Source of the DNA: an uncultured Gemmiger sp.
Lineage (GTDB): Bacteria > Bacillota > Clostridia > Oscillospirales > Ruminococcaceae
DNA: 64,000 nucleotides
Direction of reading: 5' to 3'
Assembly (NCBI GenBank): GCA_944382785.1
Contig: CALWNO010000009.1
Location: forward strand, 1 to 64,000
The stretch's first letter is position 1, and each line of letters begins with the position of its first letter. Of this stretch, positions 30,984-49,890 are shown piece after piece. A model generated the notes under the pieces. That model was not told the DNA's origin. It searched no databases and saw only the letters and a list, made by a program, of their open reading frames with translations. The position numbers were made by a program, and so were the translations under genes.

Positions 30984-32126
30984 TCAGCGGGCGTCCGCCT
31001 GGCGGGAGACCGAAAGCACAATGCCCATTTCCCCCAACAGCATGAGCAGACTGGTGCCGCCGGAAGAGAAAAAGGGCAGGCTGATGCCGGTATTGGGGAT
31101 GCTGTTGGTGACCACCGCAATGTTGAGCACTGCCTGCAGAATCACCTGGGTGACAAAGCCCACCACCAGCAGGGCGCCGAATTTATCCCGGGCCCGCAGG
31201 GCAATCTGCATGCCTCGCAAAAACAGGGCCAGAAACAGCAAGATCACCAGGGCGGCCCCCACAAAACCCAGCTCCTCGCACAAAATGGAGAAGATAAAGT
31301 CGTTCTGTGGTTCGGGGACATAGAGGTATTTCTGGCGGCTGTTGCCCAGTCCCAGCCCCACGATGCCCCCCGAGGCGATGGCATACAGGCTCTGGATGGT
31401 CTGATGTCCGGCACCAAGGGGGTCGGCAAAAGGGTCCAGCCAGGAGGACAGGCGGCTGGTGGCATAGGGAACCAGATCAGGCAGCAGCACCACCGCCGCC
31501 GCGATGGCCCCCACCCCCAGAGCCCCCGCCATGCCGAACCACTGCAGCCCGGTACCGCCCACAAACATGAGTACCGCTCCAATGCCCAGGATCAGCACGG
31601 TGCCGGACAGATGGGGTTCCAGCAGCATAAGCACTGCCACCACCCCCAGCACCAGGGCAAAGGGCAGCACCCCGGTGGAAAAGCGCTTCATCCGATCATG
31701 GTTCAGGGAGATGATGTGGGAAAATACCAGTACCACCGAAAATTTGGCGATCTCGCTGGGCTGCAGGGTGCCCAGGCCGGGAATGACGATCCAGCGTTTG
31801 CAGCCGTTGTATTCCGGCATGAAAAGCACCACCACCAGCAATACCAGCGAGATGCCCAGCAGCCACCAGGCCAGTTTGTGCCAGACATGGTAGTCGATGA
31901 GGGAAGCGGCATACATGGCAATGACCCCCAGCACCGCAAAAAGCAGCTGGGGGCGGATGTAGGTGTAGGCGTCGCCCCGGCGGTACAATGCCACCGCATA
32001 CCCCGCCGAAAAGAGCATGATCAGCCCGTAGGACAAAAGCAGCAGCAGAATGGCGGCAAAGGGCAGATCGAACCCGGGCAGAGCCGCTGTGCGCCGGGCC
32101 AGTTTTTTGGCAACGGACATGGACAT
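30984..32126 (-). CDS. FtsW/RodA/SpoVE-family peptidoglycan glycosyltransferase
   Basis: SEDS-family polymerase that links lipid II units into glycan strands with a partner class B PBP. 380 aa with about ten helices. Family motifs are FSAGYAVALYRRGDAYTYIRPQL near the N-terminus, CKRWIVIPGLGTLQPSEIAKF (FtsW/RodA signature), EPQNDFIFSILCEELGFVGA (with the conserved Asp) and NTGISLPFFSSGGTSLLM at the end. FtsW or SpoVE is favoured over RodA by the last motif, but I leave the symbol blank. The ribosome site GGGGG lies inside the 3' arm of a terminator hairpin, and the ATG follows its T-run directly. A second ATG two codons later is also possible. No class B PBP gene is adjacent. Confidence 0.92.
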   Translation of the reverse strand: MSMSVAKKLARRTAALPGFDLPFAAILLLLLSYGLIMLFSAGYAVALYRRGDAYTYIRPQLLFAVLGVIAMYAASLIDYHVWHKLAWWLLGISLVLLVVVLFMPEYNGCKRWIVIPGLGTLQPSEIAKFSVVLVFSHIISLNHDRMKRFSTGVLPFALVLGVVAVLMLLEPHLSGTVLILGIGAVLMFVGGTGLQWFGMAGALGVGAIAAAVVLLPDLVPYATSRLSSWLDPFADPLGAGHQTIQSLYAIASGGIVGLGLGNSRQKYLYVPEPQNDFIFSILCEELGFVGAALVILLFLALFLRGMQIALRARDKFGALLVVGFVTQVILQAVLNIAVVTNSIPNTGISLPFFSSGGTSLLMLLGEMGIVLSVSRQADAR

Positions 32127-32199: not shown

Positions 32200-35100
32200 T
32201 CAGCCGATGGTGGTCAGGGTGGTGCCGGGGTAGTAATGCTGCAGAATCTGCTGGTAGCTCCAGCCGTTGTTGGCGTATCCGATGGCGCCCCACTGGCTCA
32301 TGCCGCAGCCGTGGCCGTACCCATACACATCAAAGATGAAGCAGTCCAGCCCCGCATCGTAGGTAACGGTAAAGCACTGGCTGCGCAGACTGCGGCCGTC
32401 CACGCTGCAGCCCGCGGTGAGTACTTCCCGGAACCAGCGGCCGGAACAGGTATCGTTGCCGCTGGCGTTGGGGCCGATCTGCATCTGGGTGACCCAGCCG
32501 TATTCGTTCTTGGACAGGATGGTGAACCAGCTGTTGGGGTCCACGTTGGACAGATCCACCCCCATCTTTTCCTTGATACGATCCTGGAGCGTCTGACGGG
32601 AGAAGCGGGCGCAGCCGGTGCTATATCCGTTGGTGTTCCAGTTGGTGGCTGTGCTCTGGTCGTAGGGGCTGTCCACCGCCACCAGCCAGGGACGGGCATT
32701 GCCCCACACATCGGCGGCAGAAGCCGTGCCGGTGGAGGCAGAAGCAAAGTACGGGGTGAAGCAGACCTGGCCGTTGTAGGTCACCAGGATGTTGGCCACC
32801 TCCTGGGCGGCGGACAGGGCGGCGCTGCCGGGGGTGGTCCCCGCCACCGAAGGATAGCCGCTCTGGCTGAGGATCCAGCTGTGGGTGGCCACACACTGGG
32901 CCTTGTAGGCCTCCGCCGGGGCATTGGAGCCCAGCTCATTCTGGGCCACCATGGCCAGGCAGGTGACCAGGTCCATGGTCTGGGCGGTGCCGTTCATGGT
33001 CACGTTGATGGTACCCGAAGCGGTGGAACCGGAGGGCCCTTCCGCCCCGGAGGAGGAGGAGGAAGAATCCGAGGAGGCACCATCACCGCCTTCCCCACCG
33101 TCGGTGGAGGAAGAAGAACCGGAGGTAATGCTGTCGATGGTGACGGTCTGCTCCGGCAGGGTGCCTTCAGCACCCTGATTGATGTCGGTCTCCGCCGCGC
33201 CGGCCTGCCCGGCAATGTCGGTCAGACCCGCCAGCAGGTCATCCGCCGAAGCGATCAGGTCCTGGGTCTGTTGGGCCAGGCTGGCCAGAGAGTCATCCAG
33301 AGCGGTATTGGAAGAATCCGCCGTGCTGCTGTTCTGGGTGCCGCTGTTGCCGGTACCGGCCCGCAAACCGGTCAGATTGGTATAACGTTCCATCTGGCTG
33401 CTCATCAGAGTGGTGCGGTCGGGGGCGGATTTTCCTTCCGCCTCATACTGGATTCCGGTGAGCAGGGCGTCCTCATTCTCCGAGATGGTGGCCGTCAGAG
33501 CGGGGTCCTCATCGTCGCGCACCAGCCGTCCGGTCACGCACAGGCGCACCCCGTCGGTACTGCTGTCCCCCACCAGGGTCAGATAGCTTTCCCCGTCCGC
33601 CGAAGCAGCGGTGCTGTCGTACAGGCTGCGGGTGCCGATATTCAGGGAGAAGTTCAGATAATCATAGTAATTGGAAAGGTCGGTGTAATCGGCAGGATTG
33701 AAACCGCCTTCCTCGTTGGGGTCCTGGTAATAGACCGCCACCACCTTGCAGCGGTAGGCCGTACCAGGCACATAAAGGGTGAATCCGCCGTTTTTCTGGA
33801 TGGAATCCAGGTTTTCCAGTTCGGCCAGGCTGCCGCCCCACTCGATGACCGTGTTGGAGGGCGTCGCGCTGCCCAGCCAGTCATCGGTCACGAAGATGGA
33901 GGCATCATTTTCCGCCTGGCTGTGGGCATCCTGCCGGTCCTTGGCATACACAAACTGACCGTTCATGCCGGGCAGCGCCAGATAGGCACTGACGCCGTCC
34001 AGCTGGCGCATGCCGTTGGCCAGATATTTTTCGGCGGTGTTGTCAAAGGTGGCGGTGCCGTAGCCCTTGGGGGCCGGGCGCACTCCCAGGTCGTTGCGGA
34101 AGAAATACCACAGCCCCCCTGCCCCCAGGCAGAGCACCAGAACCACACACAGCAAAGTCAGAATGGCTCCCCGGCGGCGACGGCGCTGGCTCTTTTCGAT
34201 CATGGCCAGGCTGCGGTTCTTGAGAGCGGAAGCATCCGGCCGGCTGCGCTTTTGGGCAGTATCCGCTTCTGGCGCGGAGGTCTCGACCTTATCGAACATC
34301 CGGCTGGCTGCCTGCTGCAGCTCCTCGGTGGAACGGGGCGGCTGCTGTTCGTCGGCGGCCATGGCTTCCGCAATGGCCTTGGGGTCCAGACCGGCCGAGA
34401 AATCCGGGATATCGTCGTCCAGAATGGAAGGCGCGGGCTGCCTTTCCGGCTGTGCGGATGCCTGTTCCCGAGCCGATTCCGGTATATGGATGGTGCGGGT
34501 TGCCCCCTTCTGGCTGCGCAGATGGCGGGAAGCCGCAGCGGCTTCCGGGCCGGCAGTGGTGAAATCCAGGGGATTCTGTTCCTTATCGGTGTTGAACCCC
34601 AGATTCTGCAGCACCGCTTCCGGTACGGGGGTATCCCCCACCGTAGGCTGGGCAGGCTGGGCTGTCTTGGCCGGATCCGCAGCCGGCTGTGAAACCGGTG
34701 CAGCCGCCTTGCGGGGCGCCTCAAAGGTAATGGTGCCGGTGGGAGCCGATTCCGAAGTCGGGGCCGGAGCCGCCGTTTTGGCGCGGCGGGGGGTGAAGCG
34801 GCCGGTGGTTGGTACAGTGCGGGGCTGGCCTTCGGGAGAGACGATCAGCAGCGGCCGGTCATGCCCGGGCCGGAAGGTGATGGCCGAAGGCAGGGGCTTG
34901 AGGCCCAGAGCGCGGCGGCGTACCATATCCAGCAGACTGTTGGCAATGGCGGCATCGCTGTGGTCCGGGCTGACGGCGGTGGCCACCGCTCCCTTTTTAT
35001 CACACAATAGGGCGAAGGGCGCCTGGCCCACGGTAGCCGGCATGTATACCACGGCGTAGTCCGCGCCGCCGTAAGCCAGGGCCAGCTGGGCCCGGCCGGC

Positions 35101-35574
35101 GGCCGCCTGGACCACGTCCCCGGGGAATTTTTCCAGCAGGGCGGCAGGGGTGACCAGCTTGCGGGCTGTCTCCCGGTCGGCCCAGGTCTGGGTGCCGAAG
35201 TCATAGGCAGCCTCGCTGTGTTCCAGAGGCTGCAGCCGGGCACCAATCAGCCGCCCGGTGGTTTCATCCGCTGCCACCAGCAGGCGGCGCTTTTGCAACA
35301 GCACATCCAGGGTGGCCTGGGCCAGACCGGTCTCACCGTCGGCATATACCGTATCACCGAGGCGGGCACGCAGTTTCTGGACCCATTTTTCACAGTAGGC
35401 GTCGGCCATGGCCTGGTTGGGCGCGTTGACCGTGACGCAGACCGCAAATTCACCGTCACGCTCCAGCAGGCGCAAGCCGGAGCAGCCTTCCGCCTCCACG
35501 GCGCGCAGGGCGGCGCGGAGATCGGCCGCCGGCAGGCCGAACACCCGCAGGATGCGCATTTGGGTCGATAGCAT
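32200..35574 (-). CDS. Membrane-anchored SpoIID-like protein with CinA-like N-domain and sortase B-like middle domain, 1124 aa
   Basis: Layout: residues 1-225 resemble the middle and C-terminal domains of CinA, with the active-site motif changed; 226-465 are low-complexity; one transmembrane helix is at about 469-491. Residues 525-690 show a sortase class B pattern lacking the catalytic His and Cys; 740-850 are a Ser/Gly-rich linker; 855-1124 are a SpoIID/LytB amidase-enhancer domain. The last domain has QNEL (Glu880, position of the SpoIID lytic transglycosylase Glu), ALKAQ-like AYKAQCVATHSW, WGNARPWLVAVDSPYD and GYGHGCGMSQWGA, with YYPGT at the end. SpoIID cleaves denuded glycan strands, so a role in wall remodelling outside the membrane is likely. 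Typical SpoIID proteins have 300-500 aa. Start 35574 lies behind AGGAGG. Located between cinA and ftsW. Confidence 0.85.
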   Translation of the reverse strand: MLSTQMRILRVFGLPAADLRAALRAVEAEGCSGLRLLERDGEFAVCVTVNAPNQAMADAYCEKWVQKLRARLGDTVYADGETGLAQATLDVLLQKRRLLVAADETTGRLIGARLQPLEHSEAAYDFGTQTWADRETARKLVTPAALLEKFPGDVVQAAAGRAQLALAYGGADYAVVYMPATVGQAPFALLCDKKGAVATAVSPDHSDAAIANSLLDMVRRRALGLKPLPSAITFRPGHDRPLLIVSPEGQPRTVPTTGRFTPRRAKTAAPAPTSESAPTGTITFEAPRKAAAPVSQPAADPAKTAQPAQPTVGDTPVPEAVLQNLGFNTDKEQNPLDFTTAGPEAAAASRHLRSQKGATRTIHIPESAREQASAQPERQPAPSILDDDIPDFSAGLDPKAIAEAMAADEQQPPRSTEELQQAASRMFDKVETSAPEADTAQKRSRPDASALKNRSLAMIEKSQRRRRRGAILTLLCVVLVLCLGAGGLWYFFRNDLGVRPAPKGYGTATFDNTAEKYLANGMRQLDGVSAYLALPGMNGQFVYAKDRQDAHSQAENDASIFVTDDWLGSATPSNTVIEWGGSLAELENLDSIQKNGGFTLYVPGTAYRCKVVAVYYQDPNEEGGFNPADYTDLSNYYDYLNFSLNIGTRSLYDSTAASADGESYLTLVGDSSTDGVRLCVTGRLVRDDEDPALTATISENEDALLTGIQYEAEGKSAPDRTTLMSSQMERYTNLTGLRAGTGNSGTQNSSTADSSNTALDDSLASLAQQTQDLIASADDLLAGLTDIAGQAGAAETDINQGAEGTLPEQTVTIDSITSGSSSSTDGGEGGDGASSDSSSSSSGAEGPSGSTASGTINVTMNGTAQTMDLVTCLAMVAQNELGSNAPAEAYKAQCVATHSWILSQSGYPSVAGTTPGSAALSAAQEVANILVTYNGQVCFTPYFASASTGTASAADVWGNARPWLVAVDSPYDQSTATNWNTNGYSTGCARFSRQTLQDRIKEKMGVDLSNVDPNSWFTILSKNEYGWVTQMQIGPNASGNDTCSGRWFREVLTAGCSVDGRSLRSQCFTVTYDAGLDCFIFDVYGYGHGCGMSQWGAIGYANNGWSYQQILQHYYPGTTLTTIG

Positions 35575-35637
35575 AGGGGGTTCCTCCTGTTGTGATCTGT
35601 AAAATAAAGGAGAACGGGTTTTTGCCCCGCTCAAAAA

Positions 35638-36933
35638 TCAGAGGTCAGGAACGGGGTCACCGGGTTCCAGGGTCACCCCGCCGTCCGGCGGCAGACCCAG
35701 CGCCATGCGGCGCAGCAGGTCCAACGCATACAAAGCGGCCCGGGTCCGGATGATGGACCGCTCCTGGTAGCCGCCCAGCTCCAGCCGCATAAGGTAGGCG
35801 CGTTGGTTGCGGGCGTCCGCACCGCCCAGATAGACCGTTCCCACCGGCTTGCCGGGCAGCGCCCCGCCGGGGCCTGCCAGGCCGGTGATGCCCACGGCCA
35901 GATCGGCACCGGAGGCCTGCAAGGCCCCCCGGGCCATGGCCACGGCCACCGGGCCGGAGACCACGTTGTATCGCTGGATCATGGCCGGGTCCACCCCCAG
36001 CAGGCAGCTTTTGGCCTGCTCGGCATAGGTGACGAAACCGAAGCCGAATACCTCGCTGGCGCCGGGGACGCTGGTGATCTTTTCGGCCACCAGACCGCCG
36101 GTACAGCTTTCGGCGGTGGCAGCGTGCAGGCCGCGCTCCCGCAGAATGCGTACCACCGTATATTCCAGACCAGGCACGTCGGTATCGTAGGCGTTATCCC
36201 CCAGAACTTTCCGGAATTCCTCGATCCGCGCGCGGCATGCCTTTTCGGCCTCTTGGGCGGTGGCAGCCCGGGCAGTGACCCGGATCTCGCTCTCCCCTGT
36301 CTTGCAGTAGATGGCGGCTGTGGGGTTTTCGCTTTCAAACAGAGCCGCCGCCTTGCTGGCAATGCGGCTTTCGCCCCCCAGCACCCGCAGAGTCACCGAA
36401 TGAATGGTGCAGTTCTGTCTGGCCTGCAGAGCCGGGCGGACCTGCTCGGCCCACATGGCCTTCATCTCCCGAGGGACCCCGGGCATGAGCACGGCCGCGT
36501 GGCCCTGTTCATCCTCAAACCAGGCGCCGGGGGCGGTGCCGTGGTCGTTGGGAATCTTGTGGCCGCGGGTGGGTACCATGGCCTGCTTGCGGTTGTTCTC
36601 GCTGGGGACGCGGTCGGTACGGGCAAAAAAGGCCAGAATCTTGTTCCATTCGTCCTCATCGAAATGCAGGGTATCTCCGAAAGCTTCGGCCACCGTCTCC
36701 TTGGTCAGATCGTCGGCGGTGGGGCCCAGCCCGCCGGAAAACACCAGCAGGTCGCTGCGCTGCCGGGCCTGGGTCACCAGTTCCCGCAGGCGGGCGGTGT
36801 TGTCCCCGATCACATGCTCATGCAGCACCGAGATGCCCAGCTCCGCCAGTTCCCGGCTCAGGAACTGGGCGTTGGTGTTGACGATATCTCCCAGAAGAAG
36901 TTCGGTTCCCACACAGATGATTTCTGCGGTCAT
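35638..36933 (-). CDS. cinA: CinA-family protein: MoCF-like domain plus nicotinamide mononucleotide amidase domain
   Basis: 431 aa. N-terminal MoaB/MogA-like domain (1-170; GTELLLGDIVNTNAQFL, FSGGLGPTADDLT, MPGVPREM), a middle domain (about 178-255), and the C-terminal PncC-type domain with ATAESCTGGLVAEKI (272-286), the catalytic Ser in ESCTGG, and GLAGPGG. The family recycles NMN (deamidation) and in some members hydrolyses ADP-ribose. The start at 36933 lies behind CGGAGG. It follows thiI by 27 bases, and a degenerate copy of its residues 180-415 forms the N-terminus of the next gene. Confidence 0.93.
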   Translation of the reverse strand: MTAEIICVGTELLLGDIVNTNAQFLSRELAELGISVLHEHVIGDNTARLRELVTQARQRSDLLVFSGGLGPTADDLTKETVAEAFGDTLHFDEDEWNKILAFFARTDRVPSENNRKQAMVPTRGHKIPNDHGTAPGAWFEDEQGHAAVLMPGVPREMKAMWAEQVRPALQARQNCTIHSVTLRVLGGESRIASKAAALFESENPTAAIYCKTGESEIRVTARAATAQEAEKACRARIEEFRKVLGDNAYDTDVPGLEYTVVRILRERGLHAATAESCTGGLVAEKITSVPGASEVFGFGFVTYAEQAKSCLLGVDPAMIQRYNVVSGPVAVAMARGALQASGADLAVGITGLAGPGGALPGKPVGTVYLGGADARNQRAYLMRLELGGYQERSIIRTRAALYALDLLRRMALGLPPDGGVTLEPGDPVPDL

Positions 36934-36960: not shown

Positions 36961-38154
36961 TCAGAATTCGGGCTGGTCCCCGATGCGCACATAGATCTTT
37001 TCCACCGTGTCTGCCGCCACCTGTTCCAGCTCGGCCAGGCCGGGCATCTCGGCCTCGGCGGCGTTGATCTCGGCCAGGGTGGGCTTGGTTTTGGGATGAG
37101 GCGGGGTGAAGATGGTGCAGCAGTCCTCATAGGGTTCGATGGACGTTTCAAAGGTGCCGATCTTGCGGGAAATGGCCACAATATCGGTCTTGTCCATGCC
37201 GATGAGGGGACGCAGCACCGGCAGGTCCTGGGCGGCGTCGGTGCAGGCCAGGGCCGCCATGGTCTGGCTGGCCACCTGGGCCAGGCTCTCGCCGGTGATC
37301 AGGGCTTCCATCCCCGTCTTGGAGGCCACCTTTTCCGCAATGCGCAGCATGCTGCGGCGCATGAGCACGGTGAACAGCGGAGCGGGGGCATGGTCCCGGA
37401 TATACTCCTGGGGCTTGGTATACGGCACCACAAAGAGCACGCAGTCGCCGATATACTCGGACAGTTCACAGGCCAGGGCCTGGACTTTCAGCTTGGCGCG
37501 CAGGCTGGTGTAGGGCGGGCTGGCAAAGTGGATATGGTGCAAAGCCAGGCCACGGCGGGCCATGCAGTAGGCGGCCACCGGGCTGTCGATGCCGCCGGAC
37601 AGCAGGTTCAGCGCCCGGCCGCTGGTGCCCACCGGCAGGCCGCCGGCGGCTTCCTCCTTGGGTCCGTGGACGTAGGCGCCCTTATCCCGGATCTCCACCA
37701 TGATCTCCAGCTGGGGATTGTGCACATCCACCCGCAGATAGTTGTGGTGGGACAGGATGTAGGCCCCCAGCTCCCGGCAGATCTCCGGGCTCTTCATGGG
37801 ATACTTCTTGTCGGCACGCTTGGCCTCCACCTTGAAGGTACGCACGCCACGCAGCCGGTGGCCCAGGTAAGCTTCGGCGGTGCGGCAGATGTCCTCAAAG
37901 TCCTTGGAGCAGCAGACGGCCCGGCTGATCTTGACAATGCCGAAAACCTTGGAGATGCGGCGGTAGGCCTCGTCCACGTCCAGGTCCTCCTCCTGAGGCT
38001 CGATGAAGACGGTGCTCTGGGCAGAATAGACCTTGAAGGGGCCCAGGTCCTCCAGGCGGTGGCGGATGCTCTTGGCAAGGCCGGCTTCGAACTTGCCGCG
38101 GTTCAGGCCTTTCAGGGTCATTTCGCCCTGGTAGGCAAGGATGATCTCTTTCAT
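36961..38154 (-). CDS. thiI: tRNA 4-thiouridine synthase ThiI, form without rhodanese domain
   Basis: 397 aa. N-terminal ferredoxin-like and THUMP domains (1-165; FKVEAKRADKKYPMKS typical), then the PP-loop ATPase with LLSGGIDSPVAAY. It adenylates U8 of tRNA and transfers sulfur from a cysteine desulfurase persulfide. The C-terminal rhodanese domain of enterobacterial ThiI is absent, as in most Firmicutes. The upstream gene encodes a cysteine desulfurase, the sulfur donor in B. subtilis-type (NifZ-ThiI) pairs. GAGAGGA precedes the ATG. ThiI may also serve thiazole synthesis, but no thi biosynthesis genes are nearby. Confidence 0.95.
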   Translation of the reverse strand: MKEIILAYQGEMTLKGLNRGKFEAGLAKSIRHRLEDLGPFKVYSAQSTVFIEPQEEDLDVDEAYRRISKVFGIVKISRAVCCSKDFEDICRTAEAYLGHRLRGVRTFKVEAKRADKKYPMKSPEICRELGAYILSHHNYLRVDVHNPQLEIMVEIRDKGAYVHGPKEEAAGGLPVGTSGRALNLLSGGIDSPVAAYCMARRGLALHHIHFASPPYTSLRAKLKVQALACELSEYIGDCVLFVVPYTKPQEYIRDHAPAPLFTVLMRRSMLRIAEKVASKTGMEALITGESLAQVASQTMAALACTDAAQDLPVLRPLIGMDKTDIVAISRKIGTFETSIEPYEDCCTIFTPPHPKTKPTLAEINAAEAEMPGLAELEQVAADTVEKIYVRIGDQPEF

Positions 38155-38171: not shown

Positions 38172-39314
38172 TCAGATATGCTGCAGTTCCTGCAGGCCGC
38201 TTTTCAGCCCTTCCAGCAGGGCGTCCACGTCCTCGGGGGTATTGTCGGCGCAGAAGCTGACCCGCAGCGCGGTGTCGATGGTGTTGTCGTCACAGCCCAT
38301 GGCGGTCAGGGTATGGCTGGGCTCGCCCTTCTCACAGGCGCTGCCGCTGGACACGTACACATGCCGGTCGGACAGATAGTTGAGCATGGTCTGGCTCTTG
38401 ACGCAGTGCTGGCTGAAATTGAGCACCTCCGGCACCGCGTTGTCCGGGGAGTTGATGGTCACTTCCGGGATTTGGGCCAGGCCGGCGCGCAGGCGCTCAT
38501 TCAGCGCCTGGATGGCGGCGGTGCGGGCGGCCATGGTGCGGGCGCCCTGCTCGGCCGCCACACCCAGGCCCACAGCGTAGGGCAGGTTTTCGGTACCGGG
38601 GCGCACCCCGCTTTCCTGTCCCCCGCCCAGAATGGGCGCGGTCCAGTGGTAGCCGCTGCGCAGGTACAGGGCGCCGATGCCTTTGGGGGCGTGGACCTTG
38701 TGGCCGGACACCGCCAGGCTGTCCACATTCTTCAGAGGCACCCGCACCCGCAGCCAGGCCTGCACCGCGTCCACATGGACGGCACAGCGGGAGTTGCGTT
38801 CCTTGACCCCGGCGGCAAACCGGGCAATGTCCTGCCGGGCGCCGGTCTCATTGTTGACGGCCATGCAGCAGGCCAGGACGGTGTTCTTGTCCACAGCCTC
38901 GATCATGGCATCCATATCCAGGGTGCCGTCGGCCCGGGGCATGATCTCCACCACCGTGAAGTCCTGGTCTTTCAGCGCCCGGATGGGCAGCTGCACGCTG
39001 GGATGCTCAAACCCCGAGACCACGATCTTGTTGCCCCAGCTGCGGCGGGATGCCACGGCACCCAGGATGGCCAGGTTGTTGCTCTCGGTGCCGGTGGCAG
39101 TGAAGTAGAGTTCCTTGGACTGACAGCCCAGCGTTTTGGCCACCTTGGCCCGGGCCGTGCTCAGCGCTCCGTGGGCCAGCACCGCCGGGTCGTACAGGCT
39201 GGAGGGATTGGCCCAGTGGTGCAGCATGGCCGTATGGATGGCATCGGCCACGGCAGGGTCCACCATGGTGGTGGCGGCATTGTCAAGATAATGCAGGTCA
39301 GCGTCAAAACGCAT
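38172..39314 (-). CDS. Cysteine desulfurase, NifS/IscS family, dedicated to ThiI
   Basis: 380-residue PLP enzyme that removes sulfur from cysteine as a protein persulfide. PLP-binding features are HVDAVQAW and SGHKVHAPKG, with the Schiff-base Lys. The active-site loop is SGSACEKGEPSHTL, with Cys in a short loop. It lies 17 bases upstream of thiI in the same direction, matching the NifZ (YrvO-like) desulfurase that serves tRNA thiolation. No iscU/sufU is adjacent, so a role in general Fe-S assembly is less likely. The ribosome site GAGGT lies 12 bases before the ATG, rather far. Confidence 0.93.
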   Translation of the reverse strand: MRFDADLHYLDNAATTMVDPAVADAIHTAMLHHWANPSSLYDPAVLAHGALSTARAKVAKTLGCQSKELYFTATGTESNNLAILGAVASRRSWGNKIVVSGFEHPSVQLPIRALKDQDFTVVEIMPRADGTLDMDAMIEAVDKNTVLACCMAVNNETGARQDIARFAAGVKERNSRCAVHVDAVQAWLRVRVPLKNVDSLAVSGHKVHAPKGIGALYLRSGYHWTAPILGGGQESGVRPGTENLPYAVGLGVAAEQGARTMAARTAAIQALNERLRAGLAQIPEVTINSPDNAVPEVLNFSQHCVKSQTMLNYLSDRHVYVSSGSACEKGEPSHTLTAMGCDDNTIDTALRVSFCADNTPEDVDALLEGLKSGLQELQHI

Positions 39315-49779: not shown

Positions 49780-49796
49780 GATTTTGGACATAGAAA

Positions 49797-49890
49797 CAGG
49801 GGCGCCGAAAGGCTGAGATCCGCAAGGAGTACCCTTTAACCTGATCCGGGTAATGCCGGCGTAGGGAGTGGACGGGATAACATCCCATCA
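49797..49890 (+). promoter_or_regulatory. TPP (THI-box) riboswitch aptamer
   Basis: Contains the conserved THI-box pieces in order: GGGGCGCC, GGCTGAGAT, ACCCTTTAACCTGATCCGG, GTAATGCCGGCGTAGGGAG. These are the hallmark of thiamine pyrophosphate-binding leaders. With TPP bound, the downstream terminator forms and thiT is switched off. Confidence 0.97.

Follow-up and report, generated by a model that had tools for sequence, protein, structure and literature searches.

A degenerate CinA domain in a transmembrane sortase B- and SpoIID-type fusion protein of Gemmiger

The fusion gene and its domains

The window analysed here (the whole stretch of 64,000 nucleotides, from contig CALWNO010000009.1 of an uncultured Gemmiger sp.) carries a gene whose product joins a degenerate CinA, a transmembrane helix, a degenerate class B sortase and a SpoIID/LytB domain in one chain, directly behind an intact cinA gene (Table 1). 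CinA is a cytosolic enzyme, whose name is tied to competence and whose assays are tied to recycling of nicotinamide adenine dinucleotide (NAD). In this genome and its relatives, one covalent chain crosses the membrane and connects CinA, or what decay has left of it, with domains of sortase and SpoIID type. The Gemmiger form combines two pseudoenzymes with a wall-cutting end that looks intact. The initial annotation had described a CinA remnant joined to a transmembrane/SpoIID protein next to the real cinA; this order of parts was found again, with a single helix and a SpoIID profile match, and the pseudo-sortase in the outer part had been missed. The predicted topology places the pseudo-CinA N-terminus inside the cell.

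Table 1. Positions of the fusion gene, its parts and its neighbours in the window
Feature	Position	Strand	Basis
Whole gene, 1124-residue pseudo-CinA / transmembrane / pseudo-sortase / SpoIID protein	32200..35574	-	Open reading frame and translation
AGGAGG ribosome-binding site, 8 nt ahead of the ATG at 35574	35583..35588	-	Read directly from the sequence
CinA KH domain, residues 7-78	35341..35556	-	PF18146, E=1.1e-6, 29.0 bits; structure
Degenerate CinA-C (NMN deamidase) domain, residues 84-225, catalytic residues lost	34900..35325	-	
Linker, fast-evolving, residues 246-455	34210..34839	-	dN/dS 0.11-0.68, 15 pairs
Single transmembrane helix, residues 469-491, preceded by five Arg	34102..34170	-	Hydropathy (window protein and relatives)
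Class B pseudo-sortase, residues about 494-691, catalytic His and Cys lost	33502..34095	-	
SpoIID/LytB domain, residues 851-1124, catalytic Glu kept (E880)	32203..33024	-	
Intact cinA (MoCF-KH-CinA-C; AESCTGG and GLAGPGG present), upstream neighbour	35638..36933	-	
thiI, conserved upstream neighbour	36961..38154	-	PF02568, E=5e-67; synteny
iscS-like class-V aminotransferase (cysteine desulfurase type; putative name), conserved upstream neighbour	38172..39314	-	PF00266, E=3.4e-66; synteny
FtsW/RodA gene, directly downstream; only in part of the genus	30984..32126	-	PF01098, E=2e-90; locus comparison

Residues 1-225 of the fusion protein correspond to the KH and CinA-C domains of CinA without MoCF, according to both profiles and a structure model. 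The CinA profile matches the protein with E=9e-14, beginning at profile position 179, and no match to PF00994, the MoCF (COG1058) domain, was found up to E=10. The KH profile PF18146 exceeds its cut-off of 27 bits when the N-terminal 251 residues are searched and falls slightly below it on the whole 1124 residues (26.1 bits). The CinA-C profile PF02464 gives 15.9 bits against a cut-off of 23.5 in the window protein; the cut-off is passed by the window-type copies of G137, G025, G220, G151, G058, G221 and G110. The predicted structure of this part is confident (predicted local distance difference test score, pLDDT, 94) and has the KH plus deamidase fold of CinA, and the ten best PDB rows of a comparison made with VIA-align are all CinA or PncC. 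Chance similarity to CinA is rejected by the profile matches and the structure comparison. The CinA origin and the loss of MoCF, both proposed in the initial annotation from an alignment by eye, are thereby borne out, and so is the structure check against PncC/CinA that it had suggested.

The enzyme's active residues were read off alignments of 46 non-identical degenerate copies. Those required of a nicotinamide mononucleotide (NMN) deamidase (PncC), the Ser31/Lys63 dyad, Tyr58, Thr105 and Arg145, are all present in 52 of 52 free cinA genes of the same loci and do not stand together in the pseudo-CinA. Ser31, Arg145 and Gly106 are each absent from all 46 copies, and Thr105 and Ser48 are each kept in 4; the loss of the deamidase site had been rightly called at the start. 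Nine additional copies, stand-alone or cut, all lack Arg145, and Ser occupies the Ser31 column in a single one. For the Agrobacterium tumefaciens enzyme, from whose description the residue roles are taken, S31A, K63A and R145A variants are reported to be without detectable activity (PMC5384747, in excerpt). In Thermus thermophilus CinA the KH Glu extends into the partner chain's ADP-ribose site (PMC4246079, in excerpt); 44 of the 46 copies have lost it. Other residues are near-invariant and peculiar to the pseudo-CinA, namely Gly30-Cys31-x-Gly33-Leu34, Asp125, Pro151, Gln156 and Pro179. Thus the domain is like CinA (MoCF-KH-PncC; NMN deamidase / ADP-ribose pyrophosphatase) in its KH and CinA-C folds, its sequence profile and its place behind thiI, and unlike it in the missing MoCF, the changed catalytic residues, the membrane anchor and the fused wall-type domains.

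The middle domain has the fold of a class B sortase, resembling Clostridium perfringens SrtB (5b23) across about 165 residues, but lacks the catalytic His and Cys. EWGG of the window protein aligns with YGHN of relatives and LVGD with LSTC, of which we take the His and the Cys to be the sortase catalytic residues. Besides the window type, L048, L070, L071 and L073 lack both; many other relatives have them.

The C-terminal domain is like SpoIID/LytB (Clostridioides difficile SpoIID, 5i1t/5txu) in its fold, its catalytic Glu and its C-terminal GYGHGCGMSQWGA stretch. It scores 116.8 bits with the SpoIID_LytB profile TIGR02669 (cut-off 83.3) and 20 bits, below the cut-off of 23, with PF08486. The Glu that aligns with E101 of C. 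difficile SpoIID, for which a catalytic role is described (PMC6221140, in excerpt), is present in 58 of 58 rows. Judged by its sequence, this end looks intact and is a putative cutter of denuded glycan strands. Unlike SpoIID/LytB proteins as such, it is borne on a chain with a pseudo-CinA and a pseudo-sortase, and another gene of this genome, at a different place, resembles SpoIID more closely. With the sporulation equivalog TIGR02870 the window protein gives 103.2 bits and the other gene (G000:C3) 219.2, itself below the cut-off of 234.75. The identity as sporulation SpoIID was therefore rejected, and a sporulation role for the fused form as such is unlikely, because the window genome has a SpoIIP and the better SpoIID candidate elsewhere, and because no SpoIIP match was found in G041 and G017, both with intact fused CinA (2 of 27 genomes without). 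No SpoIID-type match besides the fused one was found in G017, and only one other, weak (104 bits), in G041.

States of the locus in relatives

A scan found the degenerate domain in 42 loci of named genomes, 37 of them Gemmiger or Fournierella; the others comprise one Faecalibacterium, one Subdoligranulum, one Oscillospiraceae and two Clostridia without genus. Faecalibacterium, Gemmiger and Subdoligranulum, the genera in which a search for the fusion had been proposed, are thus all represented among the loci with the degenerate domain. The gene directly upstream encodes an intact CinA at 39 of the 42 loci and a short PncC at the other 3, with thiI before it. Orthology of the locus is fixed by the conserved neighbours iscS-thiI, neighbour labels in relatives being assigned by similarity to the window genes, which were themselves profile-checked. 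The window type is present in the cultured strains Gemmiger formicilis ATCC 27749, G. gallinarum DSM 109015 and Fournierella massiliensis DSM 100451, so a non-enzymatic role of the CinA fold is testable.

The simplest states behind iscS-thiI are a plain cinA and cinA with a sortase gene. L123 has cinA, sortase and spoIID as three separate genes, and L135 and L136 have a short pncC, sortase(s) and spoIID at the same place; in L135 (2885-8341) the order is short pncC, three consecutive sortase genes and spoIID. CinA-sortase fusions with a separate spoIID occur in L058, L069 and L072. Single proteins of CinA, sortase and SpoIID keep AESCTGG in L048, L063, L071 and L073 and are without it in L059-L062 and L065-L067; in L048, L071 and L073 the CinA motif is intact though the sortase residues are lost. 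L064 has a fusion without sortase match. A separate second sortase gene was seen right after the fusion gene in L065 (10701-11753) and L067 (3075-4223), and the gene behind cinA in L049 (2276-4702) resembles, by eye, a class A penicillin-binding protein.

In seven loci of two genera (L050-L054, L057 and L068), a free cinA is followed by a pseudo-CinA with helix and without sortase or SpoIID match. This stand-alone membrane pseudoenzyme measures 287-362 residues and stands directly after cinA. Among the genomes with this form, G142, G266, G171 and G287 have a second SpoIID-type match elsewhere.

Of 148 genomes sampled in the family, at least 45 (at least 32 of 94 genera) have one open reading frame with a profile match unbroken from the CinA part to the sortase end, a hand count and lower bound in which G116 is borderline. 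Across 292 genomes of the class, the CinA frames among the matches listed are mostly of 410-460 residues, a count made apart from the longer frames of G611, G582, G586 and G803; our statements on fusions are confined to the order. In family f23, the sortase protein at the locus of G514 and G400 has an inner part without a match to the CinA model, and CinA or PncC lies elsewhere; its place suggests that this inner part may also be of CinA origin.

The literature search returned no paper on a CinA-SpoIID fusion, its scope lying outside subscription journals, most preprints and domain-architecture databases, and the earlier statement that no such fusion is described agrees with it. It also returned none linking CinA to Gemmiger and none on fusions of CinA with peptidoglycan proteins. 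Papers pairing CinA with sortase, or sortase with SpoIID, concern other subjects by their titles or opening abstract lines (PMC4877998 among those looked into). Occasional fusions of the CinA domain to further domains are mentioned, without being pursued, in one article (PMC3855486, in excerpt). The domains themselves are known; we found no description of their recurrent joining, which has a double pseudoenzyme as its end point.

Selection and order of events

The ratio of nonsynonymous to synonymous substitution rates (dN/dS) was calculated for 15 selected pairs of relatives from Gemmiger and Fournierella, which overlap in part, and the values are rough since several synonymous rates (dS) exceed 1. 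In these pairs the pseudo-CinA has a dN/dS of 0.01-0.10 at 87-97% identity, close to the active cinA (0.03-0.09 at 86-97%). The SpoIID part gives 0.01-0.13, the pseudo-sortase 0.03-0.33 and the two linkers 0.11-0.68. Such strong constraint on a dead enzyme fold speaks for a binding role. The pseudo-CinA of Gemmiger and its kin is a retained non-enzymatic part, most likely a binding or scaffold domain.

In a CinA tree of 97 KH plus CinA-C rows, the window-type copies form one clade (18 rows, support 99/92), which extends to 26 rows (99/99) with the stand-alone forms. Ten decayed fusions of the first set of genomes form another clade (100/91), and six free cinA genes of decayed-fusion genomes cluster with the CinA of another family (98/97). 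Two constrained placements of the degenerate clade, one with L048 and the free cinA genes from its own genomes and one with the other decayed fusions, were not rejected (approximately unbiased test, p-AU 0.69 and 0.68, respectively; seven long or uncertain rows of five loci excluded). The CinA tree alone does not settle where the degenerate clade attaches. The SpoIID tree of 38 rows places L048, whose full-length fusion carries an intact CinA and a pseudo-sortase, as sister to the window type (98/93); the branch of L048 is long and its letter composition unusual.

Intact and decayed fusions differ in their relation to a separate CinA. In the first set, ten full-length fusions have all eight checked residues and L125, a PncC-sortase fusion, has AESCTGG; no other CinA was found by PF02464 in these eleven genomes, of which G039, G001, G059 and G023 are just 64-87% complete. 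In the second set, eleven fusions keep Ser31, Ser48, Tyr58, Lys63, Thr105 and Gly106, with Val or Ile in the Arg145 column of L172 and L180, and no other CinA was found in their genomes, each at least 90% complete. Together, no other CinA was found in 22 of 22 genomes with intact fused CinA, or 18 of 18 when only those at least 90% complete are counted. A separate CinA or PncC is present in 28 of 29 genomes with a decayed fusion (all 18 second-set genomes and 10 of the 11 first-set ones, the exception being G032), decayed meaning at least one checked residue changed or no CinA-C match left (L130, L170, L171, L188). The association gives p=1.5e-13 in Fisher's test, uncorrected for kinship, among related genomes chosen because the fusion was visible; long open reading frames without CinA match (e.g. 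those of G004, G091, G114, G119 and G098) were left out. Genome G145, which has a decayed CinA-sortase fusion, also carries a cinA plus sortase gene pair elsewhere (L189).

Since an intact fused CinA goes with no other CinA and a decayed one with a separate CinA, fusion probably preceded duplication. According to the SpoIID tree and synteny, the favoured order would be operon, fusion, tandem cinA copy, and then loss of MoCF and both catalytic sites. The initial annotation had cinA duplicated first and joined afterwards. A separate active cinA indeed exists; a recent local duplication of the adjacent gene was rejected, because the degenerate copies from several genera fall into a single clade. 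Full-length fusions with intact CinA sites also exist, in line with fusion having come first.

Possible roles of the pseudo-CinA

We lean slightly towards the following explanation as a whole. Within this bacterial family, the iscS-thiI-cinA locus would have given rise to a CinA-helix-class B sortase-SpoIID fusion. The lineage of Gemmiger and Fournierella has a separate active cinA, and there the fused copy would then have lost MoCF and the deamidase and sortase sites, with the SpoIID catalytic Glu kept. Selection may maintain the pseudo-CinA in the cytoplasm as a domain for binding and dimerisation without catalysis, and via a putative cytoplasmic partner this domain might hold the wall-cutting SpoIID domain in pairs or at a membrane site. 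The fold, the changed sites, the intact-looking SpoIID site, the constraint and the neighbourhood are observed directly; control or placement of SpoIID by the pseudo-CinA is what they suggest. Its persistence with a helix and without sortase or SpoIID in the seven stand-alone loci supports a binding domain. Because KH and deamidase are the parts that remain and lie on the dimer axis in T. thermophilus CinA, self-pairing or pairing with the adjacent active CinA are the first candidates. Glp/GlpR of Corynebacteriales and gephyrin (PMC10522489, in excerpt) offer a likeness of kind without kinship, a metabolic enzyme fold being repurposed as a scaffold and tied to a membrane protein and wall growth, but Glp is molybdotransferase-like, not CinA, and its partner is a separate receptor.

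Several observations weigh against a binding domain kept by selection. The inner part of L130 is decayed nearly beyond recognition, with only a CinA vestige left, and that of L131 and L133 gives no CinA match, which fits passive decay in those lineages. G032 has a decayed copy, yet no other CinA was found there. Moreover, the genome counts overstate independence, since the decayed fusions of the first set are one clade, the window type is another and the second set lies outside the tree. Finally, some residues of the lost site persist, Lys63 being still Lys in 14 of the 46 degenerate copies and Tyr58 still Tyr in 33 (Trp in 13).

A bolder version, which we offer tentatively and consider on balance improbable, is that in this bacterial family the wall machinery recruited CinA. 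The enzyme would serve on the cytoplasmic side of a membrane-spanning complex with sortase B and SpoIID, whose parts are encoded by an operon or by a single fused gene. In Gemmiger the active CinA would dock on the dead anchored copy, and pyridine-nucleotide salvage and peptidoglycan cutting would occur at one site. Somewhat less likely still, the pseudo-CinA may bind the separate active CinA in a hetero-assembly and keep the NAD-salvage enzyme at the membrane beside the SpoIID protein, as the covalent link does in the intact fusions. The intact CinA or PncC gene directly upstream in all 42 named loci and in 14 window-type loci (L034-L047) points that way, as does the membrane-tethered state of the sole CinA found in fused-intact genomes. 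The neighbouring active CinA is also the first partner candidate because the retained KH and deamidase domains have a common dimer two-fold in T. thermophilus CinA (PMC4246079, in excerpt). However, adjacency may reflect the shared operon only, and in three genomes the neighbour is a short PncC without KH (L106, L109 = L045, L110 = L044).

That the pseudo-CinA is a metabolite sensor, still binding NMN, ADP-ribose or another nucleotide and switching wall cutting with the state of the cell, is quite unlikely. The fold is kept, Tyr58, a phosphate contact, mostly survives, and Lys63 does so in a minority of copies, but Ser31, Arg145 and Gly106 are always lost and the KH Glu, Thr105 and Ser48 nearly always, and the inactive A. 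tumefaciens variants also weigh against this reading. NMN binding, suggested in the initial annotation, therefore finds little room. Even less probable is a relic that merely supplies the SpoIID protein's N-terminus ahead of the helix, a reading to which the decay in L130, L131 and L133 and the loss in L132 lend some credit (genome G184, 1.3 Mb, with sortase and SpoIID behind iscS-thiI, the inner CinA part gone and no PF02464 match in the genome), but against which stand the constraint like that of active cinA beside drifting linkers, the confident fold and the seven loci without SpoIID.

Relatives with intact, half-decayed and dead CinA parts form a natural experiment, and through this series of gene fusions in related bacteria a link between metabolism and the cell wall becomes testable. 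The FtsW/RodA gene was rejected as a component of the system, since its downstream position is found only in part of the genus. Elsewhere in the window, a thiamine pyrophosphate (TPP) riboswitch lies at 49788-49884 on the plus strand (59.6 bits), the sole Rfam match above gathering score.

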